From the NCBI RefSeq assembly GCF_003667275.1, contig NZ_RCNV01000014.1, forward strand, positions 1-64,000: a stretch of DNA of 64,000 bases, read 5' to 3'. The position numbers and the translations under genes are program-made. Below the pieces are notes generated by a model. The model worked only from the letters and a program-made list of their open reading frames with translations. It made no database searches and was not told the DNA's origin. Shown here piece after piece: positions 8,013-27,629 of this stretch; within the stretch, counting starts at the first letter, position 1, and each line of letters begins with the position of its first letter. The DNA is from Mesonia aquimarina. GTDB taxonomy: Bacteria; Bacteroidota; Bacteroidia; Flavobacteriales; Flavobacteriaceae.

Positions 8013-8377
8013 TGAAAAACAGCTTTTTAGGAAAACGCTTTTATGGAGGTGTTTATGCTATTAAAGGTGCTTTTTTGTTGTTAAAAACAGAAGCTAGCAT
8101 TCAAGTTCAAGCTGTTATTGCAATTTTAATGACAGTTTTGGGCTTTTATATGGAAATATCTACTATAGAATGGATTTTGCAGATCTTAGCTATCGGTTTA
8201 GTGATGAGTTTAGAAGGAGCAAACACGGCCATTGAAGAAATAGCAGATTTTATTCATCCAGATTTTCATCATAAAATTGGACTTATCAAAGATTTAGCGG
8301 CAGGCGCTGTTTTTTTTGCCGCAATTACAGCGGTAATTATCGGGCTTGTCATTTATATTCCTTATTTTGTGCAATAA
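8012..8377 (+). CDS. dgkA: Diacylglycerol/undecaprenol kinase (DgkA family)
   Basis: A small inner-membrane kinase of 121 residues with three predicted transmembrane helices (about 30-50, 55-75 and 96-119). The family signature is complete: GANTAIEEIADF followed by KDLAAGAVF. Members phosphorylate undecaprenol or diacylglycerol and recycle lipid carriers for cell-wall and lipid synthesis. The Gram-positive-type substrate (undecaprenol) is common in this subfamily, but sequence alone does not settle it. The start codon overlaps the tpx stop codon, so the two are probably translated from one message. Confidence 0.92.
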   Translation: MKNSFLGKRFYGGVYAIKGAFLLLKTEASIQVQAVIAILMTVLGFYMEISTIEWILQILAIGLVMSLEGANTAIEEIADFIHPDFHHKIGLIKDLAAGAVFFAAITAVIIGLVIYIPYFVQ

Positions 8378-8405
8378 TTTTAGCATATTAAAGCCTAAAA
8401 ATTAA

Positions 8406-8437
8406 TTGCTAAAAACTAAACTGAATTTGTACTTTTG
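8406..8437 (+). promoter_or_regulatory. Promoter of the ftsK operon
   Basis: TTG (8406-8408) is followed after 21 bp by TACTTTTG (8430-8437). This matches the Bacteroidota TTG-N(17-23)-TAnnTTTG promoter, and the -7 box ends 21 bp before the ftsK start. Confidence 0.7.
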
Positions 8438-8458
8438 CTTACAATCTAAGCCAATTGA

Positions 8459-10834
8459 ATGCCGAAGAAAAAATCAAAATCAAAAAAAATAAATAAGCCA
8501 AATTTTAAGGCAAACCTTAAACTTACCCGAAAACAAAAAGTCCTTTTAGGAGGATTTTTAATGCTTTTAGGGCTAGGGCTTTGCATTGCTTTTGTTTCTT
8601 TTTTATTCAACTGGAAAGCAGATCAAAGCACACTCGGTCAGCTAAGTGATAGAAGTGTGGTTACTAAAAACTGGCTTAGTAAATTTGGAGCAGAAATCAG
8701 TAACTTTTTCATCTATCAAGGTTTTGGTATTGCCGCATTTAGTTTAGCGGTTTTAACCAGCTTAACGGGTGTTTATTTATTTTTTGGATTGAAAAATGAA
8801 CCGCTCAAAAAATTCTGGTTTTGGGGAATTTTAGTTATGATTTGGTTTTCTTGCGTTTTTGGTTTTTTTGCTGATCAAAATGCACTTTTAGGAGGGATTA
8901 TCGGGTTCGAATTAAACGACTTTCTTCAAGACTACTTAGGCTTTGCCGGAACAGTTTTGGTGTTAGTTTTTATTTTTATGACTTATCTAGTTCTACGCCT
9001 AAACATTACACCAGAATTAGTTCAAACCTACTTTAAAAAAACCAAACAAGATCTTTCAGAAGACTTTAAATCAGTTGCGAAAGAAGAAAATTCTTCAAAA
9101 GCTGAAGTAAAAAATAATACCACAGAAAACCTAAAAAAATCACCCGAAAAAACTGTAGAAAACTTTTCAGAAAATCAGTCTGAAAAAGAATCAATTCCAG
9201 AACCACCTAAAGAAAAAATTGTTATTAAGAATGAGGAAGATGAAAGCGATTTGGCAATGGAAGTGGAGACTGCTGCAGAAGAAGAGGAAATTGAAGATAA
9301 TTTAAGCACCCGTTTAGTTAAAGATTTTGGTGAGTTTGATCCGAAACTAGAATTGAGCAATTATAAATTTCCTTCTATAGAATTACTGAAAGATTACAAC
9401 ATAGGTGGCGGAATAACAATAGATCAAGAAGAACTAGAAGAAAATAAAGATAATATTGTCAATACTTTAAAAAATTATAAAATTGAAATTGCTCAGATTA
9501 AAGCTACGGTTGGGCCAACAGTAACATTATATGAAATTGTTCCGGAAGCGGGTATAAGAATTTCAAAGATTAAAAATTTAGAAGATGATATAGCACTTTC
9601 ACTATCAGCTTTAGGAATACGTATTATTGCGCCAATTCCAGGAAGAGGAACAATAGGTATAGAAGTACCTAATAAAAAAGCAAGTATTGTGTCTATGCGT
9701 TCGGTGGCGGCTTCTTCTAAATTTCAAAATGCAGAAATGCAATTACCTCTAGCCTTAGGAAAAACAATTTCTAACGAAACTTTTGTAGTAGATTTAGCTA
9801 AAATGCCACACTTGCTAATGGCTGGAGCAACTGGACAAGGAAAATCTGTTGGATTAAATTGTATTCTTACCTCACTATTGTATCAAAAGCATCCCGCAGA
9901 AGTAAAATTTGTATTAGTAGATCCTAAAAAAGTTGAACTAACATTATTCAATAAAATAGAACGTCATTATTTGGCCAAATTACCCGATACAGACGAGGCG
10001 ATTATTACTGATAACACCAAAGTAATCAATACCTTGAACTCTCTTTGTATTGAAATGGATAATCGTTACGACTTGCTGAAAGATGCAATGGTTCGTAATA
10101 TAAAAGAGTATAATGATAAATTTAAAGCTAGAAAATTAAATCCGGAAAACGGACACAAATTTTTGCCCTATATAGTTCTAGTAGTCGATGAATTTGCCGA
10201 TTTAATCATGACTGCCGGAAAAGAGGTAGAAACGCCAATTGCTAGATTAGCACAATTAGCACGAGCTATAGGAATTCATTTAATTATCGCAACACAACGT
10301 CCGTCTGTTAATGTAATTACCGGAATGATCAAAGCCAATTTCCCGGCAAGAATTGCCTTTAGAGTAACTTCAAAAATAGATTCTCGAACTATTTTAGATG
10401 CTGGCGGAGCAGAGCAATTAATTGGCCGTGGAGATATGTTATATACACAAGGAAACGATTTAATTAGACTGCAATGTGCTTTTGTAGACACGCCTGAAGT
10501 TGAAAAAATAACCGATTTTATCGGTTCACAAAAAGCTTATCCTGATGCACACAAACTTCCTGAATATCAAGGAGAGGAAAGTGGCACAGGACTTGATATA
10601 GATATCAGCGAGCGCGATAAGCTCTTTAAACACGCAGCCGAAGTAATTGTAACCGCTCAGCAAGGTTCGGCATCTTTGCTTCAGCGTAAGTTGAAATTGG
10701 GCTATAATCGCGCCGGAAGAATTATAGATCAATTAGAAGCGGCAGGAATTGTTGGTCCTTTTGAAGGAAGTAAAGCCAGACAAGTTTTAGTGCCCGACTT
10801 AATTGCTTTAGAAGAACATTTAAATAATAAATAA
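8459..10834 (+). CDS. ftsK: DNA translocase FtsK/SpoIIIE
   Basis: Divisome-anchored ATPase that pumps chromosome ends across the closing septum and activates dif recombination. The 791 residues have a basic N-terminus and about four or five membrane helices (roughly 25-185). A charged, low-complexity linker follows (about 195-285), then the alpha/beta motor with Walker A GATGQGKS (456-463) and Walker B VVDEFADL (Asp577-Glu578). A C-terminal winged-helix gamma domain (SLLQRKLKLGYNRAGRI) reads the orienting DNA sequences. It leads the operon ftsK-lolA-lptF/G, with gaps of 13 and 10 bp. Confidence 0.96.
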   Translation: MPKKKSKSKKINKPNFKANLKLTRKQKVLLGGFLMLLGLGLCIAFVSFLFNWKADQSTLGQLSDRSVVTKNWLSKFGAEISNFFIYQGFGIAAFSLAVLTSLTGVYLFFGLKNEPLKKFWFWGILVMIWFSCVFGFFADQNALLGGIIGFELNDFLQDYLGFAGTVLVLVFIFMTYLVLRLNITPELVQTYFKKTKQDLSEDFKSVAKEENSSKAEVKNNTTENLKKSPEKTVENFSENQSEKESIPEPPKEKIVIKNEEDESDLAMEVETAAEEEEIEDNLSTRLVKDFGEFDPKLELSNYKFPSIELLKDYNIGGGITIDQEELEENKDNIVNTLKNYKIEIAQIKATVGPTVTLYEIVPEAGIRISKIKNLEDDIALSLSALGIRIIAPIPGRGTIGIEVPNKKASIVSMRSVAASSKFQNAEMQLPLALGKTISNETFVVDLAKMPHLLMAGATGQGKSVGLNCILTSLLYQKHPAEVKFVLVDPKKVELTLFNKIERHYLAKLPDTDEAIITDNTKVINTLNSLCIEMDNRYDLLKDAMVRNIKEYNDKFKARKLNPENGHKFLPYIVLVVDEFADLIMTAGKEVETPIARLAQLARAIGIHLIIATQRPSVNVITGMIKANFPARIAFRVTSKIDSRTILDAGGAEQLIGRGDMLYTQGNDLIRLQCAFVDTPEVEKITDFIGSQKAYPDAHKLPEYQGEESGTGLDIDISERDKLFKHAAEVIVTAQQGSASLLQRKLKLGYNRAGRIIDQLEAAGIVGPFEGSKARQVLVPDLIALEEHLNNK

Positions 10835-15536: not shown

Positions 15537-16466
15537 ATGAAATCCTATATAATAATACTAAGCTTATTATATTCATTAACACTAATAGCACAAACTACTT
15601 CCATCCCTGATCAGCAATTTGAGCAAATCTTGATTAATGAAGGCATTGATAGCGATGGTGTTATTAATGGGCAAGTCGTGACGAGCGATATTGATACTGT
15701 ATTAAATTTAGATTTAGATGAGGTTGAGGATTTAACTGGTCTGGAAGATTTTATAGCGTTAGAATCCTTAGTTTTAGATGAAGGAGGAGGACCTACTTCT
15801 CCAGACTGGCCTAATATACCTATCGATTTAACCGGGAATTTAAATTTAAAAAAGCTTGAGATTTGGTCTTACGAAGGCTTGAGTGGTCTTGACTTTACAG
15901 GTTTAATTAACTTAGAGGAAGTAAAAATATTTGAAGGCCAACACGATGTATTAACGATGTTTATTGATGAATTAGATTTAAGTACAAATGCAAAAATAAA
16001 TAGAGTGGAAATTCATTTTGTAGAATATCTACAATATATAAACCTACAAAACGAGAATAATGTTAATATGCAAAATTTTGAGTTAGAAGTAGACTATTAC
16101 AGTCCAAGGTCCTTGTGTATTAAAGTAGATGACGCTACAAAAGCTACGAATAATACAGCTCCTTATAATACATGGTTGCTTTCTGGTGTTGACCCTAATT
16201 TTTATGATACAGGAGAATGTAACTTGTCGTTAAAACAAGCAGAAGTAATAGAAGTCACTTTACACCCTAATCCTACAGAAAATACATTTCAGCTTCAAAC
16301 GCAAGCAGAAGTACAAAAAGTGGAGTTGTTTTCTTTACAAGGAAAAAAATTAGCGCAGTTTTCTTCACAAGAAAATTATGACATTTCTTTTTTAGAGACA
16401 GGAATTTATTTTTTGAAAGTATCTACAACAAGGGGAAGTCAGACGCTACGTTTGCTTAAGCAATAA
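15537..16466 (+). CDS. Secreted T9SS protein, tandem paralogue 1
   Basis: A 309-residue exported protein. A Sec signal peptide ends near LTLIAQ. It is followed by a conserved block (IPDQQFEQILINEGIDSDG), a leucine-rich-like middle (VEDLTGLEDFIALESL, LEIWSYEGLSGLDFTGL), and a C-terminal type-A T9SS sorting domain starting at HPNPTENTFQLQ and ending with TLRLLKQ. It is the first of three adjacent homologues separated by 11 and 7 bp. The middle regions differ while the ends are almost the same. The leucine-rich-like core suggests a binding role at the cell surface. The ligand is unknown. Confidence 0.88.
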   Translation: MKSYIIILSLLYSLTLIAQTTSIPDQQFEQILINEGIDSDGVINGQVVTSDIDTVLNLDLDEVEDLTGLEDFIALESLVLDEGGGPTSPDWPNIPIDLTGNLNLKKLEIWSYEGLSGLDFTGLINLEEVKIFEGQHDVLTMFIDELDLSTNAKINRVEIHFVEYLQYINLQNENNVNMQNFELEVDYYSPRSLCIKVDDATKATNNTAPYNTWLLSGVDPNFYDTGECNLSLKQAEVIEVTLHPNPTENTFQLQTQAEVQKVELFSLQGKKLAQFSSQENYDISFLETGIYFLKVSTTRGSQTLRLLKQ

Positions 16467-16477
16467 AAATTAATCTT

Positions 16478-17401
16478 ATGAAATCCTATATAACAATACT
16501 AAGCTTATTATGTTCATTAACACTAATGGCACAAACTACTTCCATCCCCGATCAACAATTTGAACAAATCTTAATTAATGAAGGGATTGATAGTGATGGT
16601 ATTATTAATGGACAAGTCTTGACGAGCGATATCAATAATGTACAAAGTTTAGCATTAAACAATGTAGAAGATTTAACCGGCCTGCAAGATTTTAATGCTT
16701 TAGAATCCTTAGTTTTAGATGAAGGAGGACAGTCACTTTCAAGCAATATAACGGTAGATTTAACAGCGAATACTAATTTGAAAGAGCTAGAAATTTGGTC
16801 TTTTGCAGGCTTAACAGACCTAGATGTAACGGGACTGAGTAATCTACAAGATATATGGATTGTTGAATCACAAGACGATGTCAATACTATGTCTATTTCA
16901 GACCTAGATTTAAGCACCAATACAAATATAGAATATGTATTACTTGGATATATAGATTCTTTTAGGCGGATAAACTTAAAAAATGGGAATAATGCAAATA
17001 TGCAAGATTTTGAATTGGATATGGATTTCTTTGTTTCTATGTGGCCTACATGCATTAAGGTAGATGATGCCACAGCTGCCACGAATAATACGGCGCCTTA
17101 TGATACGTGGTTGCTTTCTGGTGTTGACCCTACTTTTTACGATGCAGCAGAATGTACTCTGTCGTTAAAACAAGCAGAAGAAATAGAAGTTGCTTTATAT
17201 CCTAATCCTACAGAAAATACGTTTCAGCTTCAAACACAAACAGAAGTACAAAAAGTGGAGTTATTTTCTTTACAAGGAAAAAAAATAGCGCAGTTTTCTT
17301 CACAAGAAAATTATGACATTTCTTTTTTAGAGACAGGAATTTATTTTGTGGAAGTCTCATCAATAAACAGCAGTCAGACGCTGCGTTTAATTAAAAAATA
17401 A
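16478..17401 (+). CDS. Secreted T9SS protein, tandem paralogue 2
   Basis: 307 residues with the same plan as its neighbours: signal peptide ending LTLMAQ, the conserved IPDQQFEQIL block, a leucine-rich-like core (LQDFNALESLVLDEGG, LTDLDVTGLSNLQDIW), and a T9SS type-A C-terminus. It is the most divergent of the three in the CTD (EVALYPNPTENTF). Synonymous changes are spread through the part where copies 1 and 3 match almost base for base. It therefore escaped the recent homogenisation that affected the other two. It lies 11 bp after copy 1 and is probably co-transcribed. Confidence 0.88.
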   Translation: MKSYITILSLLCSLTLMAQTTSIPDQQFEQILINEGIDSDGIINGQVLTSDINNVQSLALNNVEDLTGLQDFNALESLVLDEGGQSLSSNITVDLTANTNLKELEIWSFAGLTDLDVTGLSNLQDIWIVESQDDVNTMSISDLDLSTNTNIEYVLLGYIDSFRRINLKNGNNANMQDFELDMDFFVSMWPTCIKVDDATAATNNTAPYDTWLLSGVDPTFYDAAECTLSLKQAEEIEVALYPNPTENTFQLQTQTEVQKVELFSLQGKKIAQFSSQENYDISFLETGIYFVEVSSINSSQTLRLIKK

Positions 17402-17408
17402 AAATCTT

Positions 17409-18338
17409 ATGAAAACCTTTATAAAAATTTTAAGCTTTTTGTGTTCACTAACTGTACTAGCACAAACTACTTCCATCCCTGATCAGCAATTTGAGCAAAT
17501 TTTAATAAATGAAGGTATTGATAGCGATGGTACTATCAATGGGCAAGTGTTGACTAGCGACATTAATAGCGTACAAAATTTAGAGCTAAATGATGTAGCT
17601 GATTTAACAGGGTTGGAAGACTTTAATGCTTTAGAATCCTTAGTTTTAGATGAAGGAGGAGGGTTAGATTCTCAAGGTTGGCCTGATGTAATCATAGACT
17701 TAACCGCAAATACCAACTTAAAAGAATTGGAAATATGGGGTTTTATGAAATTAAATGTTCTTGATGTAACGGGATTAACTCAGCTTAAAGAATTACGTCT
17801 TGGTAATATTAGCGACGATCTTCAAGAAATGTCAATTTCTGAATTAGATTTAAGCACGAATATTAATATTGAGTATGTTGAAATAGGATTTGTAGATCCT
17901 CTGAATTACGTTAATTTAAAAAATGGGAATAATATCAATATGCAAAACTTTGCGTTGAACATAGATCATTATGGTCCAATTTCAACTTGCATTAAAGTAG
18001 ATGACGCTACAAAAGCTACGAATAATACAGCTCCTTATAATACATGGTTGCTTTCTGGTGTTGACCCTAATTTTTATGAAAACGGCGAATGTAACTTGTC
18101 GTTAAAACAAGCAGAAGTAATAGAAGTCACTTTACACCCTAATCCTACAGAAAATACATTTCAGCTTCAAACGCAAGCAGAAGTACAAAAAGTGGAGTTG
18201 TTTTCTTTACAAGGAAAAAAATTAGCGCAGTTTTCTTCACAAGAAAATTATGACATTTCTTTTTTACAAACAGGAATTTATTTTGTGAAAGTCTCAACAA
18301 CAAAGGAAAGTCAGACGCTGCGTTTAATTAAAAAATAG
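17409..18338 (+). CDS. Secreted T9SS protein, tandem paralogue 3
   Basis: 309 residues with signal peptide (LTVLAQ), the shared N-terminal block, a distinct leucine-rich-like core (DVTGLTQLKELRLGN) and a T9SS type-A sorting domain. From about 17995 to 18265 its DNA is nearly identical to copy 1 (about 16122-16392), apart from a few bases near the YENGEC codons. The last 60 bp (TTTGTGAAAGTCTCA, ending CGTTTAATTAAAAAATAG) instead follow copy 2. The gene is thus a mosaic. A terminator follows it and ends the three-gene unit. Confidence 0.88.
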   Translation: MKTFIKILSFLCSLTVLAQTTSIPDQQFEQILINEGIDSDGTINGQVLTSDINSVQNLELNDVADLTGLEDFNALESLVLDEGGGLDSQGWPDVIIDLTANTNLKELEIWGFMKLNVLDVTGLTQLKELRLGNISDDLQEMSISELDLSTNINIEYVEIGFVDPLNYVNLKNGNNINMQNFALNIDHYGPISTCIKVDDATKATNNTAPYNTWLLSGVDPNFYENGECNLSLKQAEVIEVTLHPNPTENTFQLQTQAEVQKVELFSLQGKKLAQFSSQENYDISFLQTGIYFVKVSTTKESQTLRLIKK

Positions 18339-18452: not shown

Positions 18453-20423
18453 ATGAAAAATTTCTTCTCAATTTTATGTGTTCTTTTATGTATTCCTACA
18501 AGTCAAGCACAAGTGATGATTCATGAATTAGATTGTGATTCTCCAAGTATTGACGATCAAGAATTTATCGAATTAAAATCTAACACACCAAATTATGCGC
18601 TTACTAATTTAGTTTTGGTTTTTTTTAATGGTTCTTTTAGTGGAGGGAATAAAAGTTATTTTACCATCGACTTAGATAATTACACAACTGATATCAACGG
18701 AATTTTTTTAATAGGTAGTAGTTCAGTTTCTCCTAGCCCACAGTTGCTCATTCCGCCTAACGTAATTCAAAATGGTGTCGATGCAGTCGGGCTTTATCAA
18801 GCTTCGGCGGCAGATTTTCCAGACGGTACTTTAGCTACCACTACAAATTTGATTGATGCCATTGCATATGATACAAGCGATGCAGATGCAACGAGTTTAA
18901 TGAGTTTATTAGGTCTTACAAATCAACTTAATGAAGATAAAAATAATAATAAAGACACTGAATCTATTCAACAAACTACTAATGGGAATTATATAGTAAC
19001 TACGCCAACACCACGAGCGATAAATGATGGCAGCGGAATTGATTTAAATGGAATTACCACAACTATTTCTGCTTCAGAAGTTACCGAGGGCGATCAATTA
19101 ACAATTAGTTTTTCTACCGAACAACCCGTTGGTTCTACTTCATTAAGTTTTACCATCAGCCTAGATAACGGCACATTTAATAATGCTGATTTTTCTGGTA
19201 ATACCAATATTACAATTCCTGTGGGAGCAACATCAGCTTCAACAACTATTACGTTAACAGACGACTCTGTAGATGAAGGTGATGAAGAAATGCTTATAAA
19301 AATTAACCAGTTACCTGATAAATATATTTCTTTAAACACCAATATTATTGTTAGGGTTTACGATGACGACTATACAGTTTCTCCTTTTGGAACACCTAAA
19401 AATCCTAGTTTTGGTATGGTACAATCTTCACAAACTTCAGGTTATTACAATTCTTTAGATGAAAAAGCAGACCAAAATTTAAGGCAAGCTTTACAAGATA
19501 TTATTGCCGATCCCACACTTGTAAGAGCACAGACCTATGCCGATGTAATTAATATTTTAAAAGAAGCTGATCAAAATCCTGCGCATAGCAATCAAGTTTG
19601 GTTGGCATATTCTGAAAAGGGAAAACCAAAGTTAGATTTGCAAACAACTTCTGTAAATACAGGGACTTGGAATAGAGAACACACTTACCCTAGATCTCGA
19701 GGTGGTTTTTATAGTATTGAAGAAGATGAGGTAGCAGATGGGAAAAATACCTTTTGGACTACAAATGCTGACAGTCTGCGTCATGCAAATTCTGATGCGC
19801 ATGCTTTACGCGCTGTTGCCGGACCGGAAAATAGTAGTCGAGGAAATCAAAATTACGGAGTTCAAGAATATGATGGACCCGTGGGAAACCTAGGAAGTTT
19901 TAAGGGTGATGTTGCCCGAAGTATTTTCTATATGGCTATTCGCTATAACGATCTATCGGTAGTAAACGGTTACCCAGATAGTAGTAATGAGGGTGAGCTT
20001 GGTGATTTACAAAGCTTGCTGACTTGGCATGAGAACGATCCGCCAGATGATTTTGAAATGAATAGAAATAATATTATTTACACTTGGCAAAAAAATAGGA
20101 ATCCGTTTATAGATCAACCAGAGTTAGTTGATTATATCTGGGGAAATAAAAAAGGAGATGTTTGGGAGCAAGAGCTATATAACGATAACAATAATTTACC
20201 GGTATTAAAAATTTATCCCAATCCAACAAAAGGCACTATAAAAATTGAAGGAGTTAAGGGGAGTTATAAAGTTGCTATACTAAATTTAAGTGGTAAAAAA
20301 GTTAGATCATTCAAAGCTTCGGGTACGCTGAGTAAAAAGATAAACCTTGAGAGCGGAATATATTTTGTGCAAATTAATCAAAACTCAAAAAAAATTGTCC
20401 GTAAAATTATCGTCAAACAATAG
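18453..20423 (+). CDS. Secreted endonuclease I with LTD-like and Calx-beta domains and T9SS tail
   Basis: An exported nuclease of 656 residues. The signal peptide ends PTSQAQ. Residues about 20-190 look like a lamin-tail-type domain (MIHELDCDSPSIDDQEFIEL). About 200-310 form a Calx-beta repeat rich in acidic residues (LTDDSVDEGDEE). About 320-560 form an endonuclease I domain with the catalytic stretch WNREHTYPRSRGG, then NADSLRHANSDAHALRAV and SRGNQNY. The C-terminus is a type-A T9SS sorting domain (LKIYPNPTKGTIKIEG). The enzyme would degrade extracellular DNA at the cell surface for nutrient or phosphate gain. A TACCTTTA box, one base off consensus, lies upstream at 18432. Confidence 0.9.
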   Translation: MKNFFSILCVLLCIPTSQAQVMIHELDCDSPSIDDQEFIELKSNTPNYALTNLVLVFFNGSFSGGNKSYFTIDLDNYTTDINGIFLIGSSSVSPSPQLLIPPNVIQNGVDAVGLYQASAADFPDGTLATTTNLIDAIAYDTSDADATSLMSLLGLTNQLNEDKNNNKDTESIQQTTNGNYIVTTPTPRAINDGSGIDLNGITTTISASEVTEGDQLTISFSTEQPVGSTSLSFTISLDNGTFNNADFSGNTNITIPVGATSASTTITLTDDSVDEGDEEMLIKINQLPDKYISLNTNIIVRVYDDDYTVSPFGTPKNPSFGMVQSSQTSGYYNSLDEKADQNLRQALQDIIADPTLVRAQTYADVINILKEADQNPAHSNQVWLAYSEKGKPKLDLQTTSVNTGTWNREHTYPRSRGGFYSIEEDEVADGKNTFWTTNADSLRHANSDAHALRAVAGPENSSRGNQNYGVQEYDGPVGNLGSFKGDVARSIFYMAIRYNDLSVVNGYPDSSNEGELGDLQSLLTWHENDPPDDFEMNRNNIIYTWQKNRNPFIDQPELVDYIWGNKKGDVWEQELYNDNNNLPVLKIYPNPTKGTIKIEGVKGSYKVAILNLSGKKVRSFKASGTLSKKINLESGIYFVQINQNSKKIVRKIIVKQ

Positions 20424-20498: not shown

Positions 20499-20506
20499 TA
20501 TATTTG
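20499..20506 (+). promoter_or_regulatory. -7 promoter box for the ATP-grasp operon
   Basis: TATATTTG is a perfect TAnnTTTG match, 23 bp before the start of the first ligase gene. I see no clear TTG box upstream. Confidence 0.5.
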
Positions 20507-20529: not shown

Positions 20530-21981
20530 ATGAATAAATTTATAGTAGTAGATAATCCAAAAGCTTGGTACTTTCTTAACGACAGTTCTCAAGTAATTGC
20601 TGCTAAAGAGTATTTAACCAATCCGTCTTTTGCTGCTTTAAAAAATGTACGCATTTTTAATTTATGTAAAGATTTCAGGTATCAATCTAAAGGCTATTAT
20701 GTATCTCTTTTAGCCGAAGCTAGAGGACATTTACCTTTACCAACTGTAAAAAATTTAGTTGATTTACGAGCTTTAAAATTAGTGAAAATTGTATCTGAAG
20801 AATTTGATGATTTAATTCAACAAAGTCTAAAAACAATAAAATCTAGAGAATTTACTTTAAGTATTTATTTCGGACAAAATGTTGCGCAGAAGTACAAAGA
20901 GTTGAGCGCAATGTTTCATCGGTATTTTCAAGTTCCTTTTTTACGAATTAAATTTACTTATACTAATAAATGGAATATTCAAAACATTAGGGCTATTGGC
21001 GTTTCAGAAATTCCTGAAGATCACAAAGAAAGTATGCAGCTTTTTGCAAAACAATATTTTTCAAAAAAACGATATGATACGGCAAAGGCATCAAAAGCAA
21101 TTTATGATTTAGCTATTTTAGTTCAAGAAAACGATCCTGCACCACCCAGTAACCCAAAAGCAATAAAGAAGTTTATAGAGGCTGCAGAGAAATTAAATTT
21201 TTATGTAGAAATTATTTCACCTAAAGATTTATCACGTCTTTCAGCATTTGATGCACTTTTTATTCGACAAAGTACAGAAGTAAATAATGAAACCTACACC
21301 TTTGCCAGAAAAGCTCAACAAGAAAATATAGCTTTGGTAGATTATCCTGATGCTATTTTAAAATGTTGCAACAAGGTTTTTATGGCAGAAGCGCTACAAA
21401 ATGCAGGAATAGCTTCTCCTAAAACCACTATAATTCATCAAGACAATATTTCTAGTACTTTAGAAGAAATTACATTGCCCTGTGTTTTAAAATTACCGGA
21501 TTCTACATTCTCCTTTGGTGTAAAAAAAGCTAGTAGTAAAGAAGAATATTTTCAACTGGTAAAAGAGATGCTAAAATCTTCTGATTTAATTATCGCTCAG
21601 GAATTTTGCCCTTCAGAATACGATTGGCGAATTGGTGTATTAGACGGAAAACCATTTTATGCGTGTAGGTATTATATGGCAAAAGGACATTGGCAAATTT
21701 ATAATTGGGATGCAGAAAATAAAGATGATCAGGATGGGAATGCAGATTGTATGGCGATTGAAGATGTTCCAAAAGAAATTATAGACATTGCCATCAAAAC
21801 AACTAAAATTATGGGGAAAGGCCTTTTTGGAATAGATATAAAACAAATAGATGGCCAAGCCCTTGTTATTGAAATTAATGATAATCCAAATATTGACGCA
21901 GGAGTAGAAGACCGCCATTATGGAGATCAAGTTTATACAACTATTATTGAAGCATTAATAAACCGATTAAATGAAAAATAA
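20530..21981 (+). CDS. RLAN-domain RimK-type ATP-grasp ligase
   Basis: A predicted cytoplasmic carboxylate-amine ligase of 483 residues that couples ATP hydrolysis to amide-bond formation. The N-terminal 160 residues (MNKFIVVDNPKAWYFL..., GYYVSLLAEARGHLPLP) match the RLAN domain that precedes some RimK-like enzymes. The ATP-grasp domain covers about 195-480, with the ATP-binding segment LPCVLKLPDSTFSFGV, the central VLDGKPFYACRYYM and the Mg-binding VIEINDNPN near the end. It overlaps the next gene by 11 bp. It is the first gene of a three-gene unit with a GCS2 ligase and an N-formylglutamate-amidohydrolase-like enzyme. The substrates are not known. Confidence 0.87.
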   Translation: MNKFIVVDNPKAWYFLNDSSQVIAAKEYLTNPSFAALKNVRIFNLCKDFRYQSKGYYVSLLAEARGHLPLPTVKNLVDLRALKLVKIVSEEFDDLIQQSLKTIKSREFTLSIYFGQNVAQKYKELSAMFHRYFQVPFLRIKFTYTNKWNIQNIRAIGVSEIPEDHKESMQLFAKQYFSKKRYDTAKASKAIYDLAILVQENDPAPPSNPKAIKKFIEAAEKLNFYVEIISPKDLSRLSAFDALFIRQSTEVNNETYTFARKAQQENIALVDYPDAILKCCNKVFMAEALQNAGIASPKTTIIHQDNISSTLEEITLPCVLKLPDSTFSFGVKKASSKEEYFQLVKEMLKSSDLIIAQEFCPSEYDWRIGVLDGKPFYACRYYMAKGHWQIYNWDAENKDDQDGNADCMAIEDVPKEIIDIAIKTTKIMGKGLFGIDIKQIDGQALVIEINDNPNIDAGVEDRHYGDQVYTTIIEALINRLNEK

Positions 21982-23194
21982 AAAGTACCATTTGTTTGAG
22001 GTTGTAGGAGTAGAGTTAGAATACATGCTCGTGGATAACGAGAACCTAAGCGTTATTCCCGAAGTAGATGCGCTATTGACTGATAAAAATGGAAGCTTAA
22101 CTTCTGATATTGACAATGGAGAAATTTCTTGGAGTAACGAGTTAGTAGCTCATGTTGTAGAATTAAAAACAAACGGCCCAACTGCAGATCATGAGCGTTT
22201 ATCAATGTTTTTTCTTGAAAATATTAGAGAAATAAATAGAATATTGAAGCCTAAAGGACAGCGATTATTGCCAACTGCTTCGCATCCTTTTATGAATCCC
22301 AAAAAAGAAACTGTTCTTTGGAAACACAACTACAACGAAGTTTATTCACTTTACAATAAAATTTTTGATTGTAGTGGTCACGGTTGGTCTAATGTTCAAA
22401 GTATGCATTTAAATTTTCCGTTTTATAATGATGAAGAATTTGAAATGCTTCACGCGGCTATTAGAATTTTATTGCCGATAATTCCTGCACTTACCGCCAG
22501 TTCGCCAATTTTTGAAGGAAAAGTAACCGGTTATAAAGATTCTAGGTTAGCGGTTTATAAAAATAATCAAAAAGAAATTCCGCAGCTTACCGGAAAAGTA
22601 ATTCCAGAGCGCATTTTTACAAAAAAAGATTATGAAAAAATTATTTTTGAACCGATTAAAAAAGCGATTAAACCTTATGATGCTGAAGGAATTTTAGATA
22701 GGCATTTTTTAAATTCGAGAGGAGCAATTGCAAGATTTGATAGAAATGCGATCGAGATTAGAATTATTGATATACAAGAATGTCCAAAAGTAGATTTAGC
22801 AATTGCAGATTTTCTTATTAAAGTTTTACAACATTTAACCAATTTTGGAGAGTTAGAAAAACAAAAAAGTTGGCATGAAAATGACTTGTTTAAAATTTTT
22901 GATGAGGTTATTAAAACCGGAGAAAAAACTAAATTACAAGGAGAATATTTAACTTTATTTGATCTACCACAAACGGAAATTTTAGTTCGAGATTTATGGA
23001 TGAGCTTATTTAAAGAAATTAGCAATACCATGAGTTTTGAAAATCAGGAAATAATTTCCATAATATTAGAACGCGGTTGTCTTTCTTCAAGAATTATAAG
23101 TGCTTTAGATCGAGATTTTTCAGCAAAAAATATACATAAGGTTTATCATGACTTAGCAGATTGTTTAGATAAAAATAAACTTTTTATTCCGTGA
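21971..23194 (+). CDS. GCS2-type carboxylate-amine ligase (glutamate-cysteine-ligase-like)
   Basis: A 407-residue member of the GCS2 family (YbdK-like, glutamine-synthetase fold). The N-terminal VGVELEYMLVD carries the metal-binding Glu of the fold. Further family signatures are VELKTNGP, a histidine-rich stretch near GHGWSNVQSMHLNF, and NAIEIRIID. Such enzymes join an amino acid, often glutamate, to an amine. The start lies inside the ATP-grasp gene (11-bp overlap), and its TGA overlaps the GTG start of the next gene by 4 bp. It is therefore a fixed partner in a multi-step ligase pathway. A true glutathione function is possible but not shown. Confidence 0.85.
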   Translation: MKNKKYHLFEVVGVELEYMLVDNENLSVIPEVDALLTDKNGSLTSDIDNGEISWSNELVAHVVELKTNGPTADHERLSMFFLENIREINRILKPKGQRLLPTASHPFMNPKKETVLWKHNYNEVYSLYNKIFDCSGHGWSNVQSMHLNFPFYNDEEFEMLHAAIRILLPIIPALTASSPIFEGKVTGYKDSRLAVYKNNQKEIPQLTGKVIPERIFTKKDYEKIIFEPIKKAIKPYDAEGILDRHFLNSRGAIARFDRNAIEIRIIDIQECPKVDLAIADFLIKVLQHLTNFGELEKQKSWHENDLFKIFDEVIKTGEKTKLQGEYLTLFDLPQTEILVRDLWMSLFKEISNTMSFENQEIISIILERGCLSSRIISALDRDFSAKNIHKVYHDLADCLDKNKLFIP

Positions 23195-23871
23195 AACTGA
23201 TTATTACTTGTGAACATGGTGGTAATTTAATTCCATCAAAATATATTCATTTATTTAAAAATGCTCAACAAATATTAGCATCACATCAAGGTTTTGATAC
23301 AGGAACTTTAGATTTATTCACGTACTTATCTCCGCTAGCAGATTTTTCAAAAGCAACCCAAATTAGCAGATTATTGATTGAAGTAAACCGATCTTTACAT
23401 CATCCTCAACTTTTTTCAGCATATACAAAATCACTTTCTACCTTAGAAAAGAATAAAATAATAGACCTTTTTTATCAGGATTACCGACGTGTTGTTGAAG
23501 AAAAAATTAAGGATTATCACGCTGCAAAAGAATGTGTTTTTCATCTTTCATTACATTCATTTACGCCTATTTTAAACAAAGAAAATAGAACTAATGATAT
23601 TGGCATTTTATATGATTCTAAAATTGAAGAGGAAAAAAGTATAGCAAAATTATTCAAATCAGCTTTAAAAGCTCTTCAGCCAGATTTAATTATTCGTTTT
23701 AATTATCCGTATTTGGGAAGTGCCGATGGTTTTACTACATATCTTCGAAAAAAATTTCCCAAAAATTATATTGGTATAGAATTAGAAATCAATCAAAATT
23801 TGGTTCAAAATAATTCATTTCCTATTTTGTTGAAAGAGAATATAAAAAAAGTTTTAGAAAAAATTAATTGA
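23191..23871 (+). CDS. N-formylglutamate-amidohydrolase-like hydrolase
   Basis: A 226-residue member of the N-formylglutamate amidohydrolase superfamily, a zinc-dependent peptidase-like fold. Visible motifs are ITCEHGGNLIP, GFDTGTLDLF, LIEVNRSLHHP, FHLSLHSF, and GIELEINQN near the end. It starts with GTG in an overlap with the GCS2 gene. In this setting it is more likely to trim or hydrolyse the amide product of the two ligases than to act in histidine breakdown; the hut genes are 17 kb away. Its 3' end overlaps the convergent rluE-like gene by 8 bp. Confidence 0.84.
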   Translation: MKLIITCEHGGNLIPSKYIHLFKNAQQILASHQGFDTGTLDLFTYLSPLADFSKATQISRLLIEVNRSLHHPQLFSAYTKSLSTLEKNKIIDLFYQDYRRVVEEKIKDYHAAKECVFHLSLHSFTPILNKENRTNDIGILYDSKIEEEKSIAKLFKSALKALQPDLIIRFNYPYLGSADGFTTYLRKKFPKNYIGIELEINQNLVQNNSFPILLKENIKKVLEKIN

Positions 23872-24454
23872 ATTCGTTTTCCATTAATTCGGTAATTTCT
23901 TCAACATCTCCGGCGTCCATTTTTTCAATTCCAATATTCCCTATTCGAACTCTTACCAAACGGAGTGTAGGAAAACCAACCGCTGCAGTCATTTTTCTAA
24001 CCTGACGATATTTTCCTTCCGTAAGCGTAATAGAAACCCAACTCGTTGGTCCGTGACGTTCGTCTCTAATTTTTTTAGCTCGTTTAGGGAAGTTGGGTAC
24101 TTCAAGAATCTTAATTGCTTGGCAAGGTTTAGTTGTATATTTTTCACCATCAATTCCTATTTCTACGCCTTGTTGTAGTTTTTGAATAGCTTCGGCTGTA
24201 ATAATACCATCTACTTGAGCAAAATATTCTTTTTCAATTTTGGTACCGGTAATTTTTGCACTCATTTTTCCATCGGTAGTCAAAATAAGTAAACCTTCAG
24301 AAGGCTCATCAAGTCTTCCTGCTGCCATAGTTTCTCTAGGGAAATTATAGTTTAATTCGCCTAACATTTTTTTCTTTTTAGCTTTTTCCTGATGTGTAAT
24401 AAACTGACTTAAATAACCGTAGGGTTTAAATATTTTAAAATGCTGATGTTTCAT
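23864..24454 (-). CDS. rluE: Pseudouridine synthase, RluE-like
   Basis: A 196-residue RsuA/RluE-type enzyme that isomerises a uridine in rRNA; in E. coli RluE modifies 23S U2457. The catalytic Asp49 lies in AGRLDEPSEGLL. Later motifs KIEKEYFAQV, TEGKYRQVRKM and LRLVRVRIG complete the family pattern. No S4 RNA-binding domain precedes the catalytic domain, as in RluE. The -7 box sits only 4 bp before the start codon, so the message may have almost no leader. Confidence 0.9.
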   Translation of the reverse strand: MKHQHFKIFKPYGYLSQFITHQEKAKKKKMLGELNYNFPRETMAAGRLDEPSEGLLILTTDGKMSAKITGTKIEKEYFAQVDGIITAEAIQKLQQGVEIGIDGEKYTTKPCQAIKILEVPNFPKRAKKIRDERHGPTSWVSITLTEGKYRQVRKMTAAVGFPTLRLVRVRIGNIGIEKMDAGDVEEITELMENEFN

Positions 24455-26404: not shown

Positions 26405-27280
26405 TTAATTTCTGGCATGCTTAAAACGTTTGTGAGTCCATAAATAATACTCCGGTTTTTTATTGATTTGTACTTCTAATTGCTGAAAAAATTTATCGGT
26501 TATCTCAAAATCTTCGTAGTTTTTTGCGTTTTCAGCTAGCGGAAGTAAGCTTGCTTCATAATAACCGCGTTTCACTTTTTCTACGTGTAAATACAGCACT
26601 GCAAAACCTAATCTTTTAGCCATGGCCTCAGAACCTACAAATGCAGGAACTTCTTTTCCCATAAAATTTATCCAATGTTTTTGGTTTCCTTTTTTAGGAG
26701 ATTGATCAGCAATCATATAATAACTGCTTTTTTGTTGATCGCGCATATTGCGTAACATTGTTGGAATTACTTCTTTACTGCTAATGAGTGTGGTGCCTAA
26801 ATTTGCGCGGATATCTTTTATGAGTTTATCAAAATATGGGTTCTTTATTTTTTTATAAATAGCGTAGCCTTTATTGTAAGTTTCGTAAAAATTAATTGCT
26901 GTTGCCCATTCGTAACTAGCGTAATGACCACACATAACAATTACGCCTTTACTCTTTTTTTCGAGTTCACTTAAGGCTTCGATATTAGTGTAAACAAATC
27001 GTTTTTTTAATTCTTTTTTAGAAATGGAAAGGGTTTTTATCATCTCCAAAAACATATCGCACATATGTTTGTAGAAGGCTTTTTCTATTTTTTTAAGCTC
27101 ATTTTTTGATTTTTTGGGAAAAGCGGTGACTAAATTTTCTCTAACCACTTTTTTTCGGTAACCGACTATATAATAAAAGAGGACATAAAAAATATCTGAA
27201 ACCAAATAAAATAAAGGAAAAGGCAGTTTTGAAATACACCACAATAGAGGATAAACTAAAATGTATACGGCTTTTTTCAT
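26405..27280 (-). CDS. Lysophospholipid/lipid A acyltransferase (LpxL/HtrB family)
   Basis: An inner-membrane acyltransferase of 291 residues that adds a secondary acyl chain to lipid A or a related lipid. An N-terminal membrane helix (YILVYPLLWCISKLPFPLFYL) is followed by the LPLAT catalytic motif HX4E: His119 and Glu124 in CGHYASYEW. Further signatures are SYYMIADQSPKKG and WINFMGKEVPAF. It lies 61 bp downstream of a truncated paralogue. The substrate specificity cannot be read from the sequence. Confidence 0.9.
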   Translation of the reverse strand: MKKAVYILVYPLLWCISKLPFPLFYLVSDIFYVLFYYIVGYRKKVVRENLVTAFPKKSKNELKKIEKAFYKHMCDMFLEMIKTLSISKKELKKRFVYTNIEALSELEKKSKGVIVMCGHYASYEWATAINFYETYNKGYAIYKKIKNPYFDKLIKDIRANLGTTLISSKEVIPTMLRNMRDQQKSSYYMIADQSPKKGNQKHWINFMGKEVPAFVGSEAMAKRLGFAVLYLHVEKVKRGYYEASLLPLAENAKNYEDFEITDKFFQQLEVQINKKPEYYLWTHKRFKHARN

Positions 27281-27341: not shown

Positions 27342-27629
27342 TTATGTAATAAGCTGTTTCATATTTATGAGCCCATAAAAATTTTTGATTCTTTGTTCTA
27401 TTGGTGAAAAAACATCGAAAAATTGGTGATAAAATTTGTTGCTGATTTTTTTAACTTCCGCTAAATATTGTTCAGTAAAAGTTACGATCAAGTTTTTATG
27501 TACTACTTTTTTTAGATAACCAATAAATTTGTGAATACAAAAATAAGTTAGATATGAAAGCCAATCAAGAAATATATAATTGAACCATAAAAAAAAAGGG
27601 TAGGAGAGTAGGTAAACCAATCTTTGCAT
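27342..27629 (-). pseudogene. Truncated LpxL/HtrB-like paralogue
   Basis: The 95-residue reading frame aligns only with the N-terminal third of the adjacent intact acyltransferase: LVYLLSYPFFLW against AVYILVYPLLWC, and GYLKKVVHKNLIVTF against GYRKKVVRENLVTAF. The catalytic HX4E motif and everything after it are missing, and I find no remnant in the 61 bp that follow. It looks like a tandem duplicate that has lost its catalytic part. A short membrane-anchored product with a new role is possible but less likely. Confidence 0.75.

Follow-up and report, generated by a model that had tools for sequence, protein, structure and literature searches.

The 64,000-nucleotide stretch of Mesonia aquimarina DNA analysed here (positions 1 to 64,000 of contig NZ_RCNV01000014.1, assembly GCF_003667275.1; hereafter the window) carries an operon of three overlapping genes, which encode a ligase with an RLAN and an ATP-grasp domain, a GCS2-type ligase and a hydrolase of the FGase fold. 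The genes and their domains are as follows.

20530–21981, forward strand: RLAN-ATP-grasp ligase gene (483 amino acids, ATG start)
20602–21039, forward strand: RLAN domain (Pfam)
about 21370–21900, forward strand: RimK-like ATP-grasp domain (Pfam)
21971–23194, forward strand: GCS2-type carboxylate-amine ligase gene (407 amino acids, ATG start)
22004–22831, forward strand: GCS2 domain (Pfam)
23191–23871, forward strand: FGase-fold hydrolase gene (226 amino acids, GTG start)

The first and second genes share 11 bp (21971–21981), and the second and third share 4 bp (23191–23194). These open reading frames (ORFs), overlaps and family labels had been reported in an earlier reading made from the letters alone (the sequence-only reading), and all were confirmed by the ORF coordinates and by Pfam scores above the curated cut-offs: RLAN (PF14401; E 8.7e-47, 159 bits against a cut-off of 25) and RimK (PF08443; E 8.4e-10, 39 bits against 21) in the first protein, GCS2 (PF04107; E 1.3e-28, 100.7 bits against 21) in the second and FGase (PF05013; E 2.9e-17, 64 bits against 28.9) in the third. 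In the nearest relative, locus L069, the three frames are 79, 63 and 52% identical to those of the window and both overlaps have the same lengths; the dN/dS values (NG86) are 0.137/2.12, 0.309/1.78 and 0.420/2.13, with dS near saturation. This conservation, the relation of dN to dS and the recurrence of the triplet in the genus indicate that the reading frames did not arise by chance.

When the proteins were scanned against NCBIfam, none of the three reached a curated model cut-off, indicating that all three come from subfamilies that lack a curated NCBIfam name. The RLAN-ATP-grasp protein scored below the cut-offs of the RimK models (69.8 against 143.4 bits for the family and 28.7 against 331 bits for the S6 ligase), and its identification as a RimK S6:glutamate ligase was rejected on these scores. 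The GCS2 protein, the sole GCS2 match in the genome of the window, fell below the models for YbdK (TIGR02050; 57 against 176.4 bits) and cyanobacterial GshA (TIGR02048; 38.4 against 249.05 bits). In a sample of Flavobacteriaceae genomes, 24 operon-type GCS2 proteins scored 80–102 bits with PF04107, whereas 15 other GCS2 proteins exceeded 200 bits; judged by such scores, the operon protein is a subfamily distinct from YbdK and GshA. The likeness of the third protein to N-formylglutamate amidohydrolases, also proposed earlier, held at the level of Pfam but not in NCBIfam, where it had no match at E 0.01 in a library whose content of deformylase models is unchecked; its PF05013 score in the same family sample was 60.9 bits, against 204–233 bits for 13 other FGase proteins.

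By sequence, the solved relatives of the ATP-grasp part are ligases of the RimK, LysX and D-Ala types, the best-scoring being RimK-type (7qyr, 3vpd and 5zct among them), and the match to the glutathione synthetase 1gsa is weak (E 7.3e-5). The GCS2 protein matches the solved YbdK marginally (E 0.043), and the nearest solved structure to the FGase protein is 2odf (E 9.8e-32). The invariant residues of the RLAN-ATP-grasp proteins, N281, K282, K321, D436, E448 and N450 (72 of 72 aligned sequences), presumably bind ATP or metal, as we assign them from ATP-grasp enzymes. Invariance extends to G13, E15, E17, C134, H137, R250, R258 and E262 of GCS2 (60/60 aligned sequences) and to E8, H9, D36, H118, H122 and E199 of FGase (39/39).

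All-or-none distribution of the three genes

Within the genus, RLAN was found in 10 of 16 genomes at an identity of at least 63%, the genome of the window included, and GCS2 and FGase genes directly follow it in all nine other loci that have the first gene. In the six RLAN-less genomes, the endonuclease I and RluE-type genes that flank the operon in the window are immediate neighbours, with a gap of 22–108 bp between the tblastn ends. Because the flanks are joined in all six and the triplet is whole in the other ten, we conclude that the three genes were gained or lost together. One RLAN-less member, G303, also belonged to the family sample, where it lacked all three families; for the remaining five, the search was confined to RLAN and the flanks. 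In the operon-bearing G309, the set lies at a different site from that in the window.

Three larger samples, which partly share genomes, were drawn from the family (199 genomes), the class (295) and the phylum (395). RLAN was present in 27 of the 199 Flavobacteriaceae genomes; an operon-type GCS2 gene was adjacent in 24 of these, with FGase in 23 of the 24. Separate occurrence of the genes in relatives, which the sequence-only reading had named as evidence against it, was sought and not found: the GCS2 subtype was absent from all 172 RLAN-less genomes of the family (Fisher 5e-28, uncorrected for relatedness). The three exceptions in the family are G324, with a 65-residue RLAN fragment, and G470 and G406, in which RLAN is fused to a GNAT domain. 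The triplet is therefore a real, widely shared unit, and the earlier proposal that two distinct amide ligases and a hydrolase form one unit or short pathway is strengthened by the all-or-none behaviour in the genus and by the linkage in the family.

The class sample contained 17 clear RLAN genes, 13 with GCS2, three with GNAT fusions and one with FGase only (weak rows G049 and G118 were dropped before counting). Among the 395 Bacteroidota genomes of the phylum sample, 42 had a clear RLAN (weak rows G623 and G820 likewise dropped), 30 of normal length and 12 long. Normal-length RLAN and operon-type GCS2 occur in one and the same set of 30 genomes, whereas all 12 long RLAN proteins have an N-terminal GNAT domain and none of these 12 genomes has an operon-type GCS2 (Fisher 9e-11 for the exclusion, uncorrected for relatedness). 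In G646, counted here as normal-length RLAN with GCS2, the two genes are each split over two frames (L184, 2272–5159, reverse strand), by sequencing error or decay.

A wider cassette and its GNAT counterpart

We examined 105 distinct loci (109 minus four second copies, L053/L109, L056/L116, L061/L108 and L073/L079), some of them near contig ends; the scan of named genomes covered the best 80 of at least 589 relatives, hence a set leaning to near relatives. The GCS2-bearing loci comprised 37 with C39-RLAN-GCS2-FGase, C39 being a C39-like cysteine peptidase, 29 with RLAN-GCS2-FGase, 17 with C39-RLAN-GCS2 and six with RLAN-GCS2; the remainder comprised six with GNAT, four with C39 only, one with FGase only, four with none of these and one mixed call, which was discounted. 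C39 occurred in none of 29 Flavobacteriaceae loci (28 distinct), as against 61 of 76 others (59 of 73 distinct). RLAN-GCS2 loci are spread over 15 phylum names and the four-gene loci over 11, many of them in metagenome-assembled genomes, the contigs of which can be misbinned. The triplet of the window represents a wider C39-RLAN-GCS2-FGase cassette in the form that Flavobacteriaceae have, without C39; the unit as first described is thus real but incomplete, since outside Flavobacteriaceae a C39-like cysteine peptidase usually belongs to it as well and FGase is optional.

In the RLAN tree, for which 18 loci had been thinned out beforehand, the Flavobacteriaceae form one clade (18 rows, support 99) whose sister bears C39, suggesting that C39 was probably lost in Flavobacteriaceae. 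A profile of the C39 partner found no match in the genome of the window, and its sole match in the 16 genus genomes was a partial one of 24 bits within a 733-residue frame of G306. Phyla are intermixed in the tree, indicating that the gene moves between lineages. A Gln-Cys-His-Asp set is invariant in the C39 proteins (45 of 45 aligned sequences), which would fit an active papain-like enzyme, and the conserved catalytic columns suggest that the enzymes of the cassette are probably active. Clustering of neighbouring ORFs of at least 80 amino acids (clusters in at least five of the 105 loci) revealed no fifth conserved gene: every family in more than 11 loci was one of the four core families or came from ORFs that overlie them.

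The exclusion between GNAT and GCS2 was also seen in an exchange test, in which GCS2 occurred in none of five GNAT cases and in 36 of the 37 others (Fisher 7e-6; the fragment in G324 was dropped). On a tree of 76 rows (75 chosen loci and the window, without L184; midpoint-rooted for drawing only), the GNAT or GCS2 label changes three times, and two of these changes are forced by well-supported branches. A GNAT clade (15 rows, support 98) is nested among GCS2 rows; GNAT and RLAN are fused in 14 of its 15 members, unlike L125, where GNAT is a separate neighbour. A second GNAT group, outside this clade, includes an Azospirillum plasmid locus, with a GNAT-DUF3335 gene directly upstream of RLAN, and a family coded f90. 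No C39, GCS2 or FGase match was found near the fused GNAT-RLAN genes, which suggests that the set can be replaced by this one protein with two domains; to judge from these gene contents, GNAT-RLAN alone seems to do the job of RLAN and GCS2 together.

Iyer et al. (2009) reportedly predicted gene neighbourhoods in which RLAN-ATP-grasp proteins accompany a papain-like peptidase, a GNAT or a GCS2. In contrast to such sets, RLAN of the window lacks GNAT and C39 neighbours but is accompanied by FGase; Pfam detected no GNAT domain in its RLAN protein or in the scanned neighbours. The four-gene order and the exclusion between GNAT and GCS2 were measured here. The 2009 work is cited in excerpts of PMC10318531 and PMC4431377.

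Several genes were observed beside the cassette in single loci or small groups. A DUF155 (RMND1/Sif2-like) gene lies beside or near it in five of the 105 loci (L062, L063, L064, L128 and L136), confirmed by Pfam in L062 and L128 only, with the L128 copy on the opposite strand. In L054, a GATase_4 gene resembling class-II glutamine amidotransferases (8305–9180, forward strand) overlaps the C39 gene, giving a coupled five-gene run of GATase-C39-RLAN-GCS2-FGase. An MFS transporter gene stands immediately upstream of the cassette in two Planctomycetota loci (L143, 5837–7273; L157, 5691–7169; both forward strand), which hints at transport of the substrate or the product. Single coupled neighbours (such as MFS, 4Fe-4S, CitMHS, ankyrin, DHDPS and Orn/Arg decarboxylase; two scans of 10 each) were set aside for want of a common theme, as were three genes behind L123, L127 and L133, which are mutually unrelated and have no relative in other loci.

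Candidate products and rival explanations

Given the observed gene content, unit behaviour, motif conservation and GNAT/GCS2 exchange, we give roughly an even chance to the reading that the operon carries out a two-step, ATP-dependent synthesis of a small capped amide. The product would be made independently of the ribosome and would resemble a capped dipeptide, with the enzymes acting on one another's products. The RLAN-ATP-grasp protein, as core ligase, would activate a carboxylate and couple it to an amine, and GCS2 would attach glutamate, by the side-chain carboxylate, to an amine, yielding a gamma-glutamyl N-cap. In other lineages, the core ligation would be retained and the cap added by the acyl-CoA N-acyltransferase (GNAT) fused to RLAN. 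The FGase-fold hydrolase, together with the C39-like cysteine peptidase in most other lineages, may remove the cap, trim the product or recycle it.

The closest known logic is that of the synthesis of N-acetylglutaminylglutamine amide (NAGGN) by Ngg and AsnO. In Ngg, GNAT is paired with an ATP-grasp domain, a combination of the kind found in GNAT-RLAN. According to excerpts of PMC8070244, Ngg both acetylates a glutamine and forms the peptide bond between it and another glutamine, and the pathway is alike in combining acetylation with ATP-dependent ligation to give an N-capped dipeptide; unlike it, the window set uses GCS2 instead of GNAT. The exchange of GNAT for GCS2, taken with the logic of Ngg, points to an N-capped small amide in which gamma-glutamyl would replace acyl. 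The full listing for the GNAT-RLAN protein of L060, to E 0.001, contained no match to the NAGGN-synthetase model, which we take to be present in the scanned library. Comparative genomics in excerpts of PMC4431377 proposes that linked ligases act successively or that their products are capped by an associated GNAT. Assembly of closthioamide and butirosin is alike in pairing ATP-grasp with transglutaminase- or papain-like acyl transfer independent of the ribosome (excerpts of PMC6772006, and of PMC10318531 for BtrH), but carrier proteins are used there, and no recurrent neighbour of at least 80 amino acids fits that role here.

We suggest more tentatively, and with less than even confidence, that RLAN synthetases mark out a hitherto unrecognised class of small N-capped amides, common to many lineages, with a modular cap, gamma-glutamyl beside GCS2 and acyl where GNAT is fused. 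If so, a single product family, new to chemistry, would extend across the 15 phylum names, marine Flavobacteriaceae and nitrifiers among them, with the C39 processing step dropped in Flavobacteriaceae, and the GNAT/GCS2 exchange would predict the identity of the cap. Within one genus there are natural strains that share the flanks but lack the operon, next to strains that bear it, and a comparison of their metabolomes might bring to light a common bacterial metabolite not seen before. The literature searched, limited in extent, contained no paper on the triplet and no product for the set, as the earlier reading had also said; against it, three features appear to be new: the all-or-none occurrence of the triplet, the probable C39 loss in Flavobacteriaceae, and the exchange between GNAT and GCS2.

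Several observations weigh against the capped-amide reading. The exchange reflects two or three evolutionary switches, that is, few events and not 42 independent ones, and the third switch is L128, where intervening genes separate GNAT from RLAN by about 2.3 kb. Among loci from beyond the phylum sample, RLAN occurs without GNAT or GCS2 in L053 (= L109), L124, L131, L159 and L161, and C39 accompanies it with neither in L120, L151, L152 and L156, of which L120 and L152 are at contig ends; L129, with a weak GNAT match (25 bits, about 2 kb away), was left out of these exceptions. Agreement of tree distances was moderate at best (Spearman, after 20 loci were thinned out): 0.58 for RLAN-GCS2, 0.69 for RLAN-C39, 0.39 for RLAN-FGase and 0.26 for FGase-C39, and L098 is a mosaic in the comparison of gene trees. 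FGase is absent from many loci and so is not essential, and the GNAT-RLAN fusions may serve some other purpose.

Among the alternatives, protein modification, in which the two ligases attach glutamate or another residue to a protein in the manner of RimK or PafA and the hydrolases remove it, is unlikely. The top-scoring solved ATP-grasp relatives are RimK-type, and GCS2 enzymes are related to pupylation enzymes (PMC2588565, PMC7947786). However, no conserved gene for a substrate protein was found near the 105 loci among families of at least 80 amino acids, the score with the RimK S6-ligase model is far too low, and two ligases of differing folds, together with the exchange for GNAT, suit a small molecule better. 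A precursor peptide encoded close by and modified by the ATP-grasp enzyme, as in graspetides, which are ribosomally synthesized and post-translationally modified peptides made by ATP-grasp ligases (PMC8939145), is very improbable: in the window the three genes overlap, 106 bp lie between the left flank and the first of them, and the third runs into the right flank. Across 30 Flavobacteriaceae loci, the 350 bp preceding RLAN contained 59 ORFs of at least 20 amino acids, and these gave no sign of a precursor, the matches between loci being apparent C-terminal ends of the flanking gene or confined to close relatives. Least probable of all is joint transport on mobile DNA with no common pathway; the mixed phyla of the RLAN tree would suit it, but the fixed order, the coupling, the near-perfect co-occurrence and the presence or absence as a unit do not.

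Glutathione synthesis uses a GCS-type ligase (GshA) and then an ATP-grasp ligase (GshB), and the operon has enzymes of these two classes. By strict glutathione logic, which we regard as improbable here, GCS2 would make gamma-Glu-Cys or gamma-Glu-X and the ATP-grasp enzyme would append the third residue of a redox thiol or a metal-binding peptide, with C39 as a phytochelatin-synthase-like part. Phytochelatin synthase is placed beside C39 families in a classification of papain-like enzymes (excerpts of PMC10318531), and the ATP-grasp profile does reach 1gsa, if weakly. Unlike the enzymes of glutathione synthesis, however, the operon GCS2 protein scored at best 45.6 bits with the glutamate-cysteine ligase models, against a cut-off of 409, and scores with the glutathione synthetase model (NCBIfam) were likewise far under the cut-off. 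All 16 genus genomes, whether they carry the operon or not, have a match to the bacillithiol gene bshC, unbroken in 14, indicating that the operon is no replacement for the main thiol of the genus. The argument is slightly weakened by the operon-bearing G307 (C38) and G309 (C25), in which bshC is in pieces, with internal stops and an apparently broken gene in G309; even so, replacement of the main thiol by the operon product is unlikely. The operon is also patchy in its own genus (10/16), and GCS2 can be exchanged for GNAT, an acyltransferase of which a thiol pathway has no need. The emphasis of the sequence-only reading on a glutathione-like thiol is not supported, though the product might still be a secondary thiol.

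Surroundings of the operon in the window

Two genes outside the system mark the edges of the unit, one carrying a type IX secretion system (T9SS) sorting tail.

18453–20423, forward strand: T9SS-tailed endonuclease I gene, left flank
23864–24454, reverse strand: RsuA/RluE-type pseudouridine synthase gene, convergent, right flank

The left flank ends 106 bp before the first operon gene, and the right-flank gene overlaps the third by 8 bp. About 24 bp upstream of the first gene, a TATATTTG box (20499–20506, forward strand), found by eye only, resembles the Bacteroidota promoter element TAnnTTTG. Further to the left lie three tandem paralogues of about 308 amino acids (15537–18338, forward strand: 15537–16466, 16478–17401 and 17409–18338), the third of which has a T9SS sorting tail and weak leucine-rich repeat matches. 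To the right, a 95-residue ORF (27342–27629, reverse strand) resembles by eye the start of the adjoining gene at 26405–27280 and is perhaps a truncated copy of this acyltransferase-like gene.

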